Shown here: positions 30,995 to 39,340 of the stretch, in pieces | Numbering within the stretch: the first letter of the stretch is position 1 | How the letters are laid out: each line of letters starts with the position of its first letter | Assembly (NCBI RefSeq): GCF_002554705.1 | Contig: NZ_PDEP01000008.1 | Location: 126,106 to 190,105 of the forward strand | DNA: 64,000 bases | Direction: 5' to 3' | From: Longimonas halophila | GTDB taxonomy: Bacteria; Bacteroidota; Rhodothermia; Rhodothermales; Salinibacteraceae | The notes under the pieces: generated by a model | Databases searched by the model: none | What the model was told of the DNA's origin: nothing | The model's input: the letters and a program-made list of their open reading frames with translations, nothing else | Made by a program: the position numbers and the translations under genes

Positions 30995-31444
30995 TTAGCC
31001 TTCCATTGGTTCAGCCAGCATCTGCGTAAGCGTGTTAATGCGCTCCTGCGAAAGCAGCGGCTCGATGGCCTGAATGATGAGGCTTACGCAGGTAGCGCGA
31101 TACATGAGTGCTTCATCAGGAGCCCCATTGCGTGCCGTCTGGCTCTGGATTTGCGTATTCAGTAGCGTCCAATGACACTTCATCTCAAGATATTGCACAC
31201 CAAGTGCCTGCCGAATGTCGTCCACTTCCTCCAGATCGTCGAGCGTCTGCACAATACGGTTTCGAACGCCCGAGACATACGCCCGAATGGCACGACGCTG
31301 AGCGGTCGATCCCCGGTCCCATTCATCGAGTACCGTGTCCCACTGCGCATCGAGCGGATCTTCTAACGCTTCATGTATCGCCTGGTGCTGCTCGTTAACT
31401 GTGGTAGCAGCGTTGTCGGTGGAGGGCATAACAGTGGCAGGCAT
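30995..31444 (-). CDS. Hypothetical helical protein
   Basis: A 149-residue acidic protein, probably all-helical, with no signal peptide and no family I recognise. Visible features are a low-complexity N-terminus rich in Thr/Asn and a helix-rich core (DLEEVDDIRQALGVQYLEMKCH, two cysteines). The start could be the ATG at 31444 or the internal one at residue 6. It is convergent with the DUF6503 gene, separated by only 23 bp. Confidence 0.7.
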   Translation of the reverse strand: MPATVMPSTDNAATTVNEQHQAIHEALEDPLDAQWDTVLDEWDRGSTAQRRAIRAYVSGVRNRIVQTLDDLEEVDDIRQALGVQYLEMKCHWTLLNTQIQSQTARNGAPDEALMYRATCVSLIIQAIEPLLSQERINTLTQMLAEPMEG

Positions 31445-31977
31445 AGCAGGTCAGCAAAGAAAACAGTGGATTGGGTCAGCGAGTGCAAGTGGTGCCCGGA
31501 GCGCCAGGTACCAAAATCGAGTATATGCTATGGGGGTGTATGACAGGCACGCCAAAATGCTGCACTTCAGGGATGTATATACCGACTTCATTACAGTGCA
31601 TCGGCCTTGCATCACGTGTTCTTTTCCGCACAGTGTTACCCTCAGTTTCCATGAGTCACGCAGATGTGCGATAGCGCAGCTTCGCCTGAAAATCAGTAGA
31701 CCCAAACGTCCCATGTTGTGCACATTTGTCCTGGCGGACAGGGGAACCTTGCTGCGCCACCGTCTCGTTACGCACATACATCTGTTACACATGTCTGTGC
31801 ATCGTCTGTGCTTTTAGCGCGCAGCATATTTAGTGTACAGCATAACATGCCTTACTTCCTGCTTTAAGCTTTCTGCTTTGAGCGGTGTGCCCGCAACACA
31901 GCGTGCACGCCTCACCTGTGCCCCTGCTGGGCCCGCGCTCTCACGCACGCTGGCTGTCTCCTCCATTAACAACTTCT
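31445..31977. other. Intergenic region upstream of the coiled-coil/PYP genes
   Basis: This 533-bp gap between divergent genes is AT-richer than its surroundings and must contain the promoter of the plus-strand PYP cluster. A small hairpin (CCTG-GCGGA-CAGG near 31730) is visible. Frames on the plus strand before 31978 are open but lack family similarity. I see no RNA gene. Confidence 0.5.
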
Positions 31978-34305
31978 ATGGTTATGGCTGAGCCCTCTGC
32001 CTCCTCTGCTTCCAACCCTTCGTACGAAGACCTTGCCGAAGCGTGGAACACCATCTGCCAGCTGCTCGGTGCTGATGGGCCCGACGAGGCGATTGCACGG
32101 ATCCAGACGCTTACCGACCAGATGGAAGCGCTTGACAACCGGGAGGATCTGCCCGACGAGCTCATTACCCTCAGCGAGTTTGAGCAGGTGCTCACGCGGC
32201 TGCATCAGAAAATTGCAGATCTGCGCGCACGCAATAACACGCTCGAAGCCCGCCTCGACGCGCTCACGCAGGGCTCTGAAGACGACACTTCGGCGCATGC
32301 CCTGCTTGATGCGCTTGATGCCCCGACCTATCAGGACGCGCTCGATCACATTCAGACGCTACAGGGCAAGGCCGAGGCCCGCGACGCCTCTCAGGAGGCG
32401 ATCCAGAGCACCGGGCACGACGACATCGCCAGCCTCATTGATGCCGCTAAGGCGCTGCAGCGCGAAAACGATCGCCTGCGCAGTCAGGTTCAGAGCACAG
32501 CCCCCGACACCGAGGTCCTGCAGTCGGCCTCTGCCATTCGTATGGTGCTGGGCATCTCGAACATCGAGGAAGCCGAGGAATTTGTAGAACGCCTCGACGC
32601 GCTCAGCACGTCGGTGCGCCGGGCCCTCGACCACCTTGGGATGGACGTGCCCTCGGCTCTCAGTGTAGAGCGGGCCGACAACGTCGCCTCCTATCTCGAT
32701 GTGCTCGCTTCGCAAATTGAGCGCCTGGCCGAGGCTCCGCTGCCCGACGACGAGGTATTCGAGGCTGCCGACACGCTCAACGCCATTGAGGCCACACTTG
32801 GCATCTCCTCTGCCGAAGACGCTCGCGAGATGGAGGCAATGGTGCGGTCGTTGACCGAAGACTTGGAAGCCCTGGCTCATGAGCGCGAAGTGCTGCGCGA
32901 AGAGGGCCTCACCGCCGAAAAAGCCGTATCCATGATTCATAGCATGGAGGATCAGCTCGACGATCTTTATGTCAATCAAGACGTGAACGCGTCAGACAAC
33001 GGCACGCTGCCCCCCGGTCTGAAAAACACGCTTGGCGTCGAATCCATCAAAGAGGCGCAGCGCGTTGTTGAGCGTACCAAGGAGATGGATACGCAGATAG
33101 CCACGCTCTACGAAGAGCAAGAGCAGCTTAACGAACTCGGCATCGATAGCATCGACGAGGCCATTCGGATGATCCGCGACATGAACGAGCAGCTCGTCGA
33201 GCTCTATGAGGATGTGGAGGCGCGCTCGGCGGCGCAGGCTCTTCCCAGCGCCAACCAAGACACGTTCCAGCAGCTCGAATCGCTCTATGCGCGCCAGGAG
33301 AAGTTGCAGAGCGAACTGGGCATCTCGGACCCCGAGGCGATCATCCAGATGGTCGAGGATATGAATGCGCAGCTCGAAACGCTCTACGAAGACCGCGATG
33401 CAAGCCTTGCGTCCAACCCAGATGCAGTCGTTGAACCGGACGCATTTAACAATCCCGACCTTAGCAACGCCGAGCGCCTGGAGAAGCTCATTGAGAGCAT
33501 GGCCCGCCAGCTCGATGTGCTTTATGGCGAGAAAGAAGCACTCTCCAAAGAAGGATTCGACTCTGCCGATGAGGCCGCCGATCGCATTGCGCACCTCCGC
33601 GATGAAATTCGGGCCCTGCGTGCACAGAAAGCGAGCGATGCCGAAGACCCGACCGACGCCGACGTAGACCCCGATCTTGTTCGCGAGTGGCGCGCTCTCA
33701 AAAACGACCTCGGCGTCACGTCCCCAGACGACGTTCGTGCGCTCATTGAATCGGCGCGCATGCCCAATACGGAACCGGCTGAAGCCGAAACGTCTCACGC
33801 AGAAGAGAATGGCGCAGAAACGGCTGATCCGGCGGAGATAGCGGATATCACGTCGTCTTCTGACTCTGATACAGACGCCGCCTCAACCCGTATCCAGCCG
33901 GGACCGCAATGGAATGCGGGGCCAGCGCTGGCGGATGCCGATCTTCGTGCTTCGTTGCCCACAATGGATGCTGAAGACCGGGATGCCCTCGACCTGGCCG
34001 TTATTCAGCTCGATACTGAAGGACATGTGCTCACGCTTAACGACGCGGCCTACGCGCTGCCGATGTTCGACCGCCTGCGTTCAAAGGAGGATGCTAAGCA
34101 CGCAGCGTTCTTTTTCGATCTTGCGCCCAGCACCGCGACCGACGCGTTCTACGGACGCTTCCACGCGGGCCTCGATCAGGAACAGCTCGATGCACGCTTC
34201 CCGCATCTCTTTACGGCCTCCGGTCATCCTCCATTCGTAGCGCTCGTGCACCTGTTCTACGACGACACCACCGAGACAGCATGGGTCCTGCTACGCACTG
34301 CCTAA
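31978..34305 (+). CDS. Helical-repeat protein ending in a degenerate PYP-like PAS domain
   Basis: A 775-residue, very acidic cytoplasmic protein (no signal). Residues about 20-595 are helical with at least eight copies of a unit of roughly 40 residues. Each unit starts LG(I/V)xSxEEA (LGISNIEEA 191, LGISSAEDA 274, LGVESIKEA 352, LGIDSIDEA 387, LGISDPEA 447, EGFDSADEA 525, LGVTSPDDV 578) and often continues MxxxMxxQLxxLYE. After an acidic linker (600-660), residues about 665-775 align along their length with photoactive yellow protein: VIQLDTEGHVL, LAPSTATDAFYGRF, and the final AWVLLRT. The chromophore Cys is replaced by Ser718 and the Glu46-equivalent region differs, so it cannot bind p-coumaric acid in the usual way. 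A bona fide PYP gene follows 79 bp later. I infer a scaffold or signalling partner. Confidence 0.88.
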   Translation: MVMAEPSASSASNPSYEDLAEAWNTICQLLGADGPDEAIARIQTLTDQMEALDNREDLPDELITLSEFEQVLTRLHQKIADLRARNNTLEARLDALTQGSEDDTSAHALLDALDAPTYQDALDHIQTLQGKAEARDASQEAIQSTGHDDIASLIDAAKALQRENDRLRSQVQSTAPDTEVLQSASAIRMVLGISNIEEAEEFVERLDALSTSVRRALDHLGMDVPSALSVERADNVASYLDVLASQIERLAEAPLPDDEVFEAADTLNAIEATLGISSAEDAREMEAMVRSLTEDLEALAHEREVLREEGLTAEKAVSMIHSMEDQLDDLYVNQDVNASDNGTLPPGLKNTLGVESIKEAQRVVERTKEMDTQIATLYEEQEQLNELGIDSIDEAIRMIRDMNEQLVELYEDVEARSAAQALPSANQDTFQQLESLYARQEKLQSELGISDPEAIIQMVEDMNAQLETLYEDRDASLASNPDAVVEPDAFNNPDLSNAERLEKLIESMARQLDVLYGEKEALSKEGFDSADEAADRIAHLRDEIRALRAQKASDAEDPTDADVDPDLVREWRALKNDLGVTSPDDVRALIESARMPNTEPAEAETSHAEENGAETADPAEIADITSSSDSDTDAASTRIQPGPQWNAGPALADADLRASLPTMDAEDRDALDLAVIQLDTEGHVLTLNDAAYALPMFDRLRSKEDAKHAAFFFDLAPSTATDAFYGRFHAGLDQEQLDARFPHLFTASGHPPFVALVHLFYDDTTETAWVLLRTA

Positions 34306-34384
34306 TGCGTTGCCCTGCCGCGCACCTTTGCCGGGGCATCCTCCCCTGTTCAATGGCTTCCTCCCCGCCGCCTCCCTTTTTGCC

Positions 34385-34921
34385 ATGAGTGATTCTTCGA
34401 CCTCTGACCTGTTTTCGTACCTGAAGGAGAAGGCTAACCGCTCGTCTGAGCTGCGCTCACAAGATGCATCGGATGCCGCTGCTGATGCTTCTGACAATGC
34501 TCGTAACGAGGCTGCCGACGATGCCGAATCCGCATCGGACGATCCATCCAACCAGCTCAACTTCGAAGACCCAACCGTGGGCGAACGGCTCCGTGATGCG
34601 TCCAAAGACACGCTGAACAGCGCCGACTTTGGCATCATCCGGCTCGACGACGAAGGCATTGTACAGTTTTTTAATGCATACGAGTCCAACTTGAGCGGCG
34701 TAGACCCCGACGAGGCTCTGGGCCAGAACTACTTCAATGAACTGGCCCCCTGCAGCAATAACCGTGTGTTCTATGGGCGCTTTCGCGACGGTCTCAAAAA
34801 CGGCGGAATGGATGAGTACTTTACATACACGTTTACGTATAAAATGCGCCCTACACTCGTAGATGTGCATCTCTACCGCGACGATGCGGGCAACAACTGG
34901 ATTATGGTGCGCAAGCGCTAA
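34385..34921 (+). CDS. pyp: Photoactive yellow protein with acidic N-terminal extension
   Basis: A 178-residue protein. Residues 1-65 are an acidic, Ala/Asp/Ser-rich extension absent from classical 125-residue PYP. Residues about 75-178 match PYP end to end: ADFGIIRLDDEG, GQNYFNELAPCSNNRVFYGRF, YFTYTFTYKMRPTLVDVHL and the closing NWIMVRKR. Cys123 corresponds to chromophore Cys69, and Glu100 to Glu46 with the same 23-residue spacing. Tyr42 is replaced by Phe96 with one extra residue beside it, Thr50 by Ser104, and Arg52 by Val106, so spectral tuning and kinetics should differ from Halorhodospira PYP. PYP is known in Salinibacter ruber. No tyrosine ammonia-lyase or p-coumaroyl ligase gene is in this window. 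Confidence 0.93.
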   Translation: MSDSSTSDLFSYLKEKANRSSELRSQDASDAAADASDNARNEAADDAESASDDPSNQLNFEDPTVGERLRDASKDTLNSADFGIIRLDDEGIVQFFNAYESNLSGVDPDEALGQNYFNELAPCSNNRVFYGRFRDGLKNGGMDEYFTYTFTYKMRPTLVDVHLYRDDAGNNWIMVRKR

Positions 34922-34973: not shown

Positions 34974-36197
34974 ATGCAGATTGCAGTGCTCGGAGGCGGC
35001 ATTTCGGGCATCACCACGGCAGTCCTTCTGCGTGCCTGCGGGTACGCCACCACACTAATCACAGCAGCCCGCGCCGACACGGCGCACGGTGCCGACTGGC
35101 CGCGCCTGGCCAGCCACTACCCGGCGGCCTCCGTCATACCCCACACGGTGCGCGTTGCAAATCCTGCCCATCACACGCGCTGGAGTCAGGCCTGCTTCGA
35201 CGTGTTTACAGATCGACCAGCCTGGGGCGTGCGCATGCAGCGTCATGCCGAACTCTTCGAATCGCCCCCCCATCGGCCTGCTTACCTCGACGCGCTGCGC
35301 CGCCTCGTGCATCTCCCCAACGATGGACGCGGGGCCCCTGGTCTTCCGCGCCGCGCTGAGGCAGAAGGGCTCTTCGGCTGGACGTTCGACATGACGTTTG
35401 TGGAAGCTCCGCGCTACCTTCGCAAGCTGTACCTTGCCTACCAGGAGGGGGGCGGCACCATACGACGGATGCACATCTCGCCCGAGAACCGCTCAACGCT
35501 CCCTGGGGATGTGTGGGTGAACTGCCTGGGGGCAGGCGCCCCTCGTGTCTTTGACGACGAGGCTCCCGCTACATTTCTCCATGGTCACCTGCTGCATGTA
35601 AAACCGCCCATATCATGGGAGGCATGGGCAGATACGGCAGCGGTGCAGTCGTATAACTATGCGCCTGCACCTGCTTGCTATCCCTCGCATATTGAAAATA
35701 TACCCGGCGGATTGTATTTCTACCCACATGCATCCACCTGGATTGTGGGAGGTACGAAACACCCTGCACATCGCCACGGCGGCTACGCGACTCCACTGCG
35801 CGGGCGCACCCGCCATGTGCACGGCGTAGCGCTGCCTGAGGCCATGTGGACAACAAACGCGGATCTCATTAGGCAGCTCACAGGCACCGATTTCCGAGAT
35901 GCTCCCATGCGCGTGGTGAGCGGACTCCGCTATGTGCGTGGCCCTGAAAGCGACGGCGTGCGCCTCTGTTGGGACTCCGGCCCTGCGCGTCCCACAATAC
36001 ACAACTATGGCCACGGCGGTGCGGGCGTTACGTTGTCGTGGAGCTGTGCACTGCATGTGGCGCACATGCTTATGGAACGCCATGCGCCACCACAGCCGTC
36101 ACCTGCGCCCTACCCGTTTCCTGCACTGCGGGATACGATGCATCGCCTTTTCAAGGAGCAGCCCTCCGCAGCTCAACGTTCACAGCCTGATGCATAA
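34974..36197 (+). CDS. FAD-dependent D-amino-acid oxidase family protein
   Basis: The 407-residue flavoprotein begins with the Rossmann dinucleotide motif MQIAVLGGGISGITTAVLL. It has DAO-type blocks: VNCLGAGAPRVF, PGGLYFYPHASTWIVGGT, SGLRYVRGPESDGVRL and the C-terminal NYGHGGAGVTLSWSCA, which holds the FAD. These match D-amino-acid/D-aspartate oxidases. Substrate residues cannot be assigned by eye. It starts 52 bp after the PYP gene on the same strand and is probably cotranscribed, though a functional tie to light sensing is only a guess. Confidence 0.87.
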   Translation: MQIAVLGGGISGITTAVLLRACGYATTLITAARADTAHGADWPRLASHYPAASVIPHTVRVANPAHHTRWSQACFDVFTDRPAWGVRMQRHAELFESPPHRPAYLDALRRLVHLPNDGRGAPGLPRRAEAEGLFGWTFDMTFVEAPRYLRKLYLAYQEGGGTIRRMHISPENRSTLPGDVWVNCLGAGAPRVFDDEAPATFLHGHLLHVKPPISWEAWADTAAVQSYNYAPAPACYPSHIENIPGGLYFYPHASTWIVGGTKHPAHRHGGYATPLRGRTRHVHGVALPEAMWTTNADLIRQLTGTDFRDAPMRVVSGLRYVRGPESDGVRLCWDSGPARPTIHNYGHGGAGVTLSWSCALHVAHMLMERHAPPQPSPAPYPFPALRDTMHRLFKEQPSAAQRSQPDA

Positions 36198-38221: not shown

Positions 38222-39340
38222 CTATGCCGCGCTGATGCGGCGCAGCGGGAGACGGCATGTTACGGTTGTCATGCCTTGGCTATGGCCAACGTGGAACGTT
38301 GCGCCAATGAGATGGGCCCGATAGCGCATGCGAGATAGGCCCTTCCCAGCGTCTGAAGGGGTGTGGTCGTGTTGGGTTGGATGCCAGACGCTACCGTCGT
38401 TGTGGATGGTGAGCACGAGCGCACGGCTTGTAGCATGAAGGCGGATTCCTGTGTGCGTGGGGGCCGCATGCGCGTGTGCATTTGCAACGGCCTCTTCGGC
38501 AATGCGATGTAGATGCATAGCAACCGAAGCGTTGTGCACGGCGGGCAGGTCGTCGCCTCCGATAAACGTGCAACGTCCTGGGCCGTGGCGATCGGCCTCG
38601 CGAGCCAGATCGGAGAGCGCCTCTGTGAGTCGGTCTTGCTGAAGCGAGACCGGCAGCAGTTCATGGGAGAGCTCGCGCGCCTTGTCGACGCCTTCGCGGA
38701 TGGCATCGGCAATCGCATCGAGATCGTCGGCTGTGCACGGCGTGCCTTGTTCAACCGCCGCCTTCAGGTTCTGGACGTGCATGGCCGTGGCTGCGAGCTG
38801 CATGCCGAGCGACTCGTGCAGCGACTGGCTCACAGCGCGGCGCTCGGCAGTGTTTAGAGCCGTCATGTCGCGTTCCATGTCGCGCCGTTCGGTTACATCA
38901 ATGCCCACAAGCACAAGCGATTCTACATCGGCATTGGGAGTGGAGCGCCGTGCGGTACAGGTGCCTTCCAACAATCGGGGCGGAGCATCGTCGCGCATCC
39001 AGTGCATTTCGAGATGGATCTGTCCGGCGCGTCCGCTACGCAGCGCCTCGAATCCACGTGTAAGCACGTGCATCTCTTCAGGGTTTGCAAAGAGCATGCG
39101 CACATCCTCTCCAATCATGGCATCAAGCGAGGCGCCAACAAGCTGTGTACAGGCCCGGTTCATAAACTGAATGCGTCCCTCTGCATCCATTTCAACGACC
39201 ACGGCTCCCATTGAGTCGAGCACTCTGCTGGGGAGCGGAGCGGGCTCGGGGCGTTGCGGCTGGTATGGAGAGAGCGAGGAGGACAGAGACCAGGCCGGAC
39301 GCTCCCACTGGGTTGTGGTCATGTCAATAAACGTTAGCAT
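38222..39340 (-). CDS. PAS-domain sensor histidine kinase (HisKA_3/NarX-like)
   Basis: The 372-residue soluble kinase has an N-terminal Pro-rich lead, a PAS domain (about residues 40-150: MGAVVVEMDAEGRIQFMNRAC ... LVGIDVTERRDMERD) and a HisKA_3-like region with phospho-His175 in SQSLHESLGMQL. The HATPase domain has HRIAEEAVANAHAHA and a degraded G1 (IHNDGSVW) before GKGLSRMRYRA. Start is 39340 or the internal ATG at 39322. There are no transmembrane helices, so the signal is cytoplasmic. No response regulator is adjacent. It is convergent with the fRMsr gene. Confidence 0.88.
   Translation of the reverse strand: MLTFIDMTTTQWERPAWSLSSSLSPYQPQRPEPAPLPSRVLDSMGAVVVEMDAEGRIQFMNRACTQLVGASLDAMIGEDVRMLFANPEEMHVLTRGFEALRSGRAGQIHLEMHWMRDDAPPRLLEGTCTARRSTPNADVESLVLVGIDVTERRDMERDMTALNTAERRAVSQSLHESLGMQLAATAMHVQNLKAAVEQGTPCTADDLDAIADAIREGVDKARELSHELLPVSLQQDRLTEALSDLAREADRHGPGRCTFIGGDDLPAVHNASVAMHLHRIAEEAVANAHAHAAPTHTGIRLHATSRALVLTIHNDGSVWHPTQHDHTPSDAGKGLSRMRYRAHLIGATFHVGHSQGMTTVTCRLPLRRISAA

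Follow-up and report, generated by a model that had tools for sequence, protein, structure and literature searches.

The described proteins that most closely resemble the one treated here are long chains which include a photoactive yellow protein (PYP) domain. In the PYP-phytochrome hybrids Ppr and Ppd, as presented in the relevant passages of one survey (PMC9664959), the PYP domain is N-terminal and fused to a phytochrome together with a kinase or GGDEF/EAL module; some members, such as methylobacterial Ppr, lack the chromophore-binding Cys69, and no pair of an active PYP and a dead paralogue is described in these passages. In the MCP-PYP fusions dealt with in part of a second survey (PMC12826048), PYP forms the C-terminus of a long helical protein, retains Cys69 and is attached to a chemoreceptor. 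Here we analyse a stretch of 64,000 nucleotides from the cultured halophile Longimonas halophila (NZ_PDEP01000008.1, positions 126,106 to 190,105; “the window”). It encodes a 775-residue helical protein, referred to as the scaffold, whose C-terminal domain resembles PYP but carries a serine in place of the chromophore cysteine (“pseudo-PYP”), and, 79 bp downstream, a stand-alone PYP. The scaffold is multidomain like Ppr/Ppd and bears its PYP-like domain at the same end as the MCP-PYP fusions, from which it differs in the loss of Cys69 and in having no match to an MCP family. In our judgement there is an even chance that the locus encodes a module devoted to blue-light signalling, with the pseudo-PYP serving to dock PYP onto the scaffold and a 149-residue protein, encoded divergently from the scaffold gene, as a third component.

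Like that of the window, the PYP of Salinibacter ruber (Q2S0F2) is a stand-alone protein of clade B. In genome G026, which we take to be this species, its gene is divergent from that of the 149-residue protein; unlike in the window, no scaffold or pseudo-PYP adjoins it, and a scaffold remnant of about 100 residues is found at another locus. The function of this PYP is listed as unknown in Table 1 of PMC12826048, and in the parts of the 2022 and 2025 surveys bearing on it (PMC9664959, PMC12826048) the signal relay from single-domain PYPs is called an open question. The scaffold-PYP architecture is not described in the main text of either survey as far as the pertinent sections go, while their supplementary lists may hold such proteins; with this reservation the original prediction, which knew of no description, agrees with the literature searched. 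The passages of PMC12826048 on its census count Cys69-containing PYPs only, so that the fused domains would be passed over, and those of PMC9664959 mention Cys69 substitutions in clades A and B. Our searches found no literature on a pseudo-PYP or on PYP together with DUF427, and among works on PYP in Salinibacter or with coiled coils, PYP surveys, gene clusters, scaffolds or heterodimers and related genera, judged mostly by title, none describes the set. Scaffold, pseudo-PYP and 149-residue protein look like an undescribed set of PYP partners. The locus offers two concrete candidate partners with phylogenetic support. The gene for the 149-residue protein also lies beside the PYP of Salinibacter-like genomes, which opens the claim to tests on a PYP that has been studied in depth. 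Should PYP and pseudo-PYP indeed pair in nature, they could find use as a dimeriser in optogenetics.

The two open reading frames (ORFs) lie where they had been predicted, with the predicted spacing (Table 1); a GTG start at 31885 would lengthen the scaffold to 806 residues. BLASTP aligns the scaffold C-terminus with the stand-alone PYP at 33% identity (E 1e-14), in accordance with the proposed kinship. The TIGR02373 (photo_yellow) profile matches scaffold residues 654-773 at 5.3e-11, short of the curated 143-bit cut-off; no genome among the 195 of the class or the 395 of the phylum attains that cut-off, and the passages of PMC9664959 concerned note that PYPs are only partly covered by this profile. 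Among sequences in the PDB the domain matches PYP at 1.8e-7. In the AlphaFold2 model, computed from an alignment of 20 sequences, residues 651-775 follow a disordered linker and have a mean predicted local distance difference test score (pLDDT) of about 91. The best Foldseek match of this region is PYP (2qj7, E 8.7e-12, template modelling score 0.91 by target length), with 1gsv at E 2.0e-11 and a root mean square deviation of 1.8 Å over 126 columns, and the best 40 PDB matches listed are all PYP or PYP-derived. The original prediction had named a different fold of residues 660-775 as the result that would weaken it; the predicted fold is that of PYP. That the domain is a generic PAS domain is rejected, the genome having 33 Pfam PAS matches versus three to the PYP profile, namely the pseudo-PYP, the adjacent PYP and a third one encoded on a different contig.

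The chromophore site of the fused domain is lost. Ser718 (34129-34131) takes the place of Cys69, in keeping with the early assignment of Ser718 in the scaffold and Cys123 in the stand-alone protein, and none of 22 fused domains from the window and its relatives has a cysteine there, which the family definition in PMC9664959 demands. Judged by its sequence, the C-terminal domain is a PYP paralogue and not a functional PYP. In the 21 aligned fused domains position 69 is occupied by Ser (11), Gly (6), Ala (3) or Asp (1); Tyr/Phe42 and Met100 occur in none, Glu46 and Tyr98 in one each. The 22nd, added after these counts, belongs to a 390-residue ORF and has Ala at 69. Excluded from the counts were L042 and L043 (contigs shared with L066 and L054), L073 and a 919-residue PAS kinase in L062 as ordinary PAS matches, and L072, a partial PYP of 126 residues with Cys present; weak PYP-profile matches in other long ORFs (E 3e-7 to 9e-4, e.g. 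in G156 and G141) were taken as PAS and left uncounted. The 390-residue ORF (L045:9059-10231, plus strand) is a second scaffold-like gene of its locus in genome G071, with a strongly diverged pseudo-PYP, and follows the PYP of a type-B operon (see below).

A pocket altered in this manner could belong to a domain that senses a different ligand or the redox state, bears no relation to the neighbouring PYP and lies next to it as a leftover of tandem duplication. The pocket has indeed been remade fairly consistently, with Pro50 in 19 and Ala46 in 17 of the 21 aligned domains, and redox sensing has been proposed for methylobacterial PYPs without Cys69 in the passages of PMC9664959 on them. Yet no polar residue is conserved at positions 42, 46, 69, 98 and 100, the commonest, Ser69, being present in 11 of 21; there is no cysteine at 69, and the adjacency to PYP persists in three families. 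We regard this explanation as very improbable. All 21 aligned domains agree at five core positions (37, 62, 68, 75 and 119).

The pseudo-PYP is under purifying selection like PYP itself. Between the window and its congener L066, the single species pair compared (Nei-Gojobori, own script), the ratio of nonsynonymous to synonymous substitutions amounts to 0.059 for pseudo-PYP residues 656-775, 0.070 for PYP, 0.10 for the scaffold and 0.053 for the 149-residue protein, in contrast to 0.20 for the scaffold linker (residues 591-655) and 0.45 for the PYP extension. That the domain is decaying is rejected on the value of 0.059 from this pair. In a tree of 53 rows, a single branch (support 96/95) has all 20 pseudo-PYPs on the same side, the root being unplaced and several pseudo-PYP rows being long branches; the tree and alignment A1 comprise 20 of the 21 fused domains, alignment A2 28 of 31 stand-alone PYPs. 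The pseudo-PYPs probably stem, as far as this tree tells, from a single old duplication of PYP.

The stand-alone protein has the sequence attributes of a PYP, matching the PYP profile and possessing Cys69, Glu46 and Phe42 at the chromophore site. TIGR02373 recognises it at E 4.8e-29 with 101 bits, again below the curated cut-off, and the best match among PDB sequences is PYP at E 7.5e-25. Phe in place of Tyr42 is found in about 9% of known PYP homologs according to the corresponding passage of PMC9664959. Across 31 complete stand-alone PYPs, Cys69 and Tyr98 are invariant (31/31 each), Glu46 is present in 29 and Asn in two, and position 42 is Tyr in 17 and Phe in 14. The Asn46 proteins are L048:1142-1534 (plus strand) and L071:9336-9725 (minus strand); the survey passages on position 46 name Gln and Leu, Asn not being among the substitutions there. 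As part of the overall explanation, the stand-alone PYP would be the light input, loaded with p-coumaric acid.

The fused domain is present in 13 of the 195 class genomes, 11 belonging to the window's family, one to f10 (G112) and one to f13 (G146), and all 13 also have a stand-alone PYP. In 18 of 22 cases the fused gene is followed by a co-directional stand-alone PYP, across three families; one of the others, the 390-residue ORF mentioned above, comes directly after a PYP, and three have no neighbouring PYP. That the pair is peculiar to the window's strain is rejected in view of this conservation. The original prediction, which would have lost ground had the genes not been adjacent in relatives, is not refuted on this count; it is supported in part, namely in its description of a PYP with intact chromophore site beside a paralogous chromophore-less domain on a long helical protein. 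The scaffold relatives in the 13 genomes have 354-1225 residues, some cut by contig ends. A profile of the scaffold repeat block (E≤1e-6) matches 19 of the 195 class genomes, exactly the 19 genomes of the order with a PYP; in six of these the block is only a weak remnant. No further PYP-scaffold fusion appeared in 395 phylum genomes in a search with E 1e-8 as its limit, too strict for the weakest fused domains (that of G077 was overlooked); a 1059-residue ORF in G330 matches part of the PYP profile at 5e-9.

Two locus types can be distinguished in the window's family. In type A, to which the window locus belongs, the divergent gene for the 149-residue protein precedes the scaffold gene, itself followed by one PYP gene or two, and chromophore genes are absent from the run. 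In type B the scaffold is shorter, and after it come PYP, an AMP-binding ligase, an aromatic amino acid lyase and, last, a DUF427 protein, the families being assigned by Pfam on representatives only. Scaffold, PYP, ligase and lyase occur together in eight loci (L045, L047, L054, L055, L058, L065, L068 and L069); at L060 only the ligase is present, and L050 combines scaffold, ligase and DUF427 but lacks PYP. The window locus has no ligase and ammonia-lyase beside its PYP, and the lyase matches of this genome sit on other contigs. Both enzymes accompany PYP in the type-B loci of relatives and at L070, the locus of this genome's third PYP, where ligase, lyase and DUF427 are found but no adjacent scaffold. 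The PYP of L070 falls into the clade (99/95) formed by the type-B PYPs. Since ligase and ammonia-lyase genes stand in eight scaffold-PYP loci and beside the third PYP, the case for photoactivity of the stand-alone PYP is stronger than it was originally. The DUF427 protein (PF04248) ends type-B operons, as in L055:5573-6064 (minus strand) and, by similarity, in L045, L050, L054, L058, L068, L069 and L070. In L065:6307-9378 (minus strand) a 1023-residue fusion of AMP-binding ligase and aromatic amino acid lyase lies directly downstream of PYP and is likely, from its domains, a one-chain p-coumaroyl-CoA synthase. G112 has the gene for the 149-residue protein, scaffold, PYP and a fused 1023-residue ligase-lyase ORF together, and in G146 the set is split over two contigs; we infer that the 149-residue protein gene next to scaffold-PYP-ligase-lyase is the older arrangement.

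The type-B gene order, scaffold-PYP-ligase-lyase-DUF427, might suggest that the scaffold serves chromophore supply by gathering apo-PYP, ligase and lyase, with the pseudo-PYP mimicking apo-PYP and holding the ligase. In Salinibacter-like genomes, where PYP is divergent from the gene for the 149-residue protein, a scaffold remnant of about 100 residues has indeed stayed directly before ligase and DUF427 after PYP departed. This remnant, however, lacks the very domain that would hold the ligase, ligase and lyase genes are missing from type-A runs, that of the window among them, and PYPs elsewhere are not known to need a scaffold-like helper to take up their chromophore, all of which makes this explanation quite improbable. 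The remnants (L111:8475-8930, minus; L113:8095-8397, plus; L110:8222-8521, plus) comprise the N-terminal part and one repeat.

The divergent gene for the 149-residue all-helical protein (P150) had no place in the original prediction and is new here. Its product has no significant Pfam or NCBIfam family (best Pfam E 0.025, below cut-off); the AlphaFold2 model shows six helices at pLDDT 88.7 and finds no PDB fold match at E≤0.001 with Foldseek, and the profile reaches at best E 0.29 against PDB sequences. This profile matches 22 of the 195 class genomes, among them, with one copy each, all 19 genomes of the order that have a strong PYP match. The gene is divergent from the scaffold in ten genomes and divergent from PYP, with no intervening scaffold, in seven; in two (G077, G106) it lies on another contig. 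Of 395 phylum genomes 13 are matched, including G401, G407 and G450, the three genomes of f52 in which PYP was detected outside the class; there the two genes are not neighbours. In G142 and G084 a remote likeness to the protein is encoded directly downstream of PYP, before what we take, from a familiar motif, to be a ligase-like ORF. The likeness scored 7.2e-8 in the genome search for G142, where G084 gave nothing; for G084 it scored 0.0046 among 2536 ORFs, the next unrelated ORF being at 0.73, and hhalign of the G142/G084 pair against the family gave 93% over 62 columns. Of the 12 cluster members known at that point, alignment A3 includes 11, close relatives being left out. We take this distribution to mean a link with PYP, subject to the reservation that it concerns mostly one family and that three genomes have the gene without PYP; in two of these, G011 and G042, the similar gene comes after one for a sensor histidine kinase.

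The 149-residue protein follows the PYP distribution more closely than the pseudo-PYP does (19/19 order PYP genomes versus 13). This would suit a pseudo-PYP that merely caps the scaffold as a homodimerisation domain, PYP signalling through the 149-residue protein or the scaffold repeats, and so would the Salinibacter-like genomes, which hold PYP divergent from the gene for this protein with the scaffold absent, and the YS[FY]L motif in the N-terminal extension of all 17 type-A PYPs examined, scaffold-less ones included. Such a cap leaves unexplained why a PYP-derived dimeriser resides on a protein encoded beside PYP in three families, and we think it rather unlikely. The presence of the domain in all aligned scaffolds is no evidence on this point, since scaffolds were found by that domain. 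In its full form, [DNS][LP][YF]S[FY]L[KRQ], the motif occurs in 17/17 type-A PYPs of the family examined, in 0/10 of type B and in 0/4 others. Because it persists in genomes that have lost the scaffold and retain the gene for the 149-residue protein, it may be a candidate docking site for this protein; against this counts that in G112 and G146 the protein accompanies PYPs without the motif.

Returning to the signalling module, we picture its working as follows. PYP would be the light input, its p-coumaric acid being supplied through lyase and ligase genes at other sites of the genome. The scaffold would be cytosolic, its kinked helical repeats acting as spacer or multivalent platform, and the pseudo-PYP, an old PYP duplicate that lost its chromophore site, would have been retained for docking or dimerisation on account of its PYP-like shape. 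On illumination PYP would loosen, which would alter its grip on the pseudo-PYP and thereby the state of the scaffold, and the 149-residue protein would be the third core component, probably an adaptor relaying the signal. Flagellar phototaxis is disfavoured as the output because the family containing Longimonas is described as nonmotile (PMC6856283). The data show the build of the proteins, the conservation of the pair, the purifying selection and the joint inheritance of the parts; a physical complex of PYP and pseudo-PYP, its dependence on light, the part played by the 149-residue protein and the output are inferences from them. 

A working analogy for such a division of labour is White Collar WC-1/WC-2, which pairs a cofactor-bearing PAS protein with a partner devoid of cofactor. 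CetA/CetB, in the passages of PMC9664959 on it, combines a cofactor-bearing PAS protein and a cofactor-less partner in the same way. Neither is homologous as a system to the locus: they have no PYP and no helical-repeat scaffold. More far-reaching, and in our view possible rather than probable, is that the locus represents a new type of photoreceptor complex based on light-dependent hetero-association of a soluble PYP with its dead twin, which a modular scaffold of helices would carry, the signal passing through the 149-residue family as a general partner of Bacteroidota PYPs including that of Salinibacter ruber.

Several observations weigh against the signalling module. PYP stands beside the gene for the 149-residue protein without intervening scaffold in seven genomes of the order, and since six of these keep both without any pseudo-PYP, the latter is dispensable there. 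The fused genes of L050, L061 and L062 have no adjacent PYP, which is found elsewhere in the genome (in L062 the gene lies about 820 bp from a contig end), and scaffold-like proteins without a pseudo-PYP domain exist. The adjacency of the pair may be a relic of tandem duplication. The 149-residue protein occurs in G126, where no PYP was found, and weakly in G011 and G042, while G473 has a PYP-like protein (5.5e-18) and no gene for it. Fisher p-values of 3e-21 and 2e-24, obtained with G084 and G142 counted as PYP without the 149-residue protein, overstate independence, the counts being dominated by one family. Finally, the AlphaFold2 confidence over the scaffold is modest (predicted template modelling score 0.29).

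The label “helical repeat” for the scaffold proved apt: helices recur around an LG[VI]x[ST]x[DE][DE]A turn, and the pattern scan yielded 122 repeat fragments from 19 of 20 scaffold proteins, the search pattern itself fixing part of the motif. No transmembrane segment is indicated, the top 19-residue Kyte-Doolittle mean of the whole protein being 0.87. Pfam and NCBIfam scans reveal no recognised output domain (PHY, HisKA, GGDEF/EAL, MCP, V4R, REC) in the 775-residue chain and, outside the PYP domain, only matches below cut-off, mostly to coiled-coil families. Chemoreceptor, kinase and SMC protein were rejected as identities for the scaffold (Rad50-like match at 17.5 bits versus a cut-off of 700, others also below cut-off).

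Table 1. Features of the scaffold-PYP locus in window coordinates.
Feature	Position	Strand	Basis or remark
149-residue all-helical protein “P150”	30995..31444	-	divergent from scaffold gene; conserved neighbour
775-residue scaffold protein with C-terminal pseudo-PYP	31978..34305	+	ORF, Pfam/NCBIfam scans, AlphaFold2
Helical-repeat region of scaffold, residues 16-594	32023..33759	+	repeat-pattern scan, AlphaFold2 helices
Most conserved repeat block, residues 424-489	33247..33444	+	alignment A5, 15 sequences; both locus types
Disordered acidic linker of scaffold, residues 595-641	33760..33900	+	pLDDT<50
Pseudo-PYP domain, residues 651-775	33928..34302	+	BLASTP, TIGR02373, AlphaFold2, Foldseek
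Stand-alone PYP, 178 residues	34385..34921	+	Cys123 (34751-34753) = chromophore Cys69; Glu46 kept, Tyr42 replaced by Phe
DLFSYLK motif, disordered N-terminal extension of PYP	34406..34426	+	form [DNS][LP][YF]S[FY]L[KRQ]

Promoter and terminator scans gave results no better than shuffled sequences. Short scaffold-like helical proteins without PYP domain adjoin or overlap the last PYP of the operon in L044:7928-8722 (minus), L053:10077-10904 (plus) and L059:8542-9381 (minus). In L044 and L058 a multi-PAS histidine kinase (L044:3165-6722, plus; L058:10146-13733, plus; Pfam on L044 only) and an OmpR-type response regulator (L044:7056-7838, plus; L058:14147-14830, plus; by similarity to L046) sit between the type-A and type-B PYP loci and are possible output partners. 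In the window, 52 bp after PYP, an FAD-dependent oxidoreductase of the DAO family (34974-36197, plus strand) may share its transcript; in the congener L066, too, PYP is followed by a homologue. A PAS-HisKA_3-HATPase sensor kinase is encoded about 3.3 kb downstream of PYP (38222-39340, minus strand).

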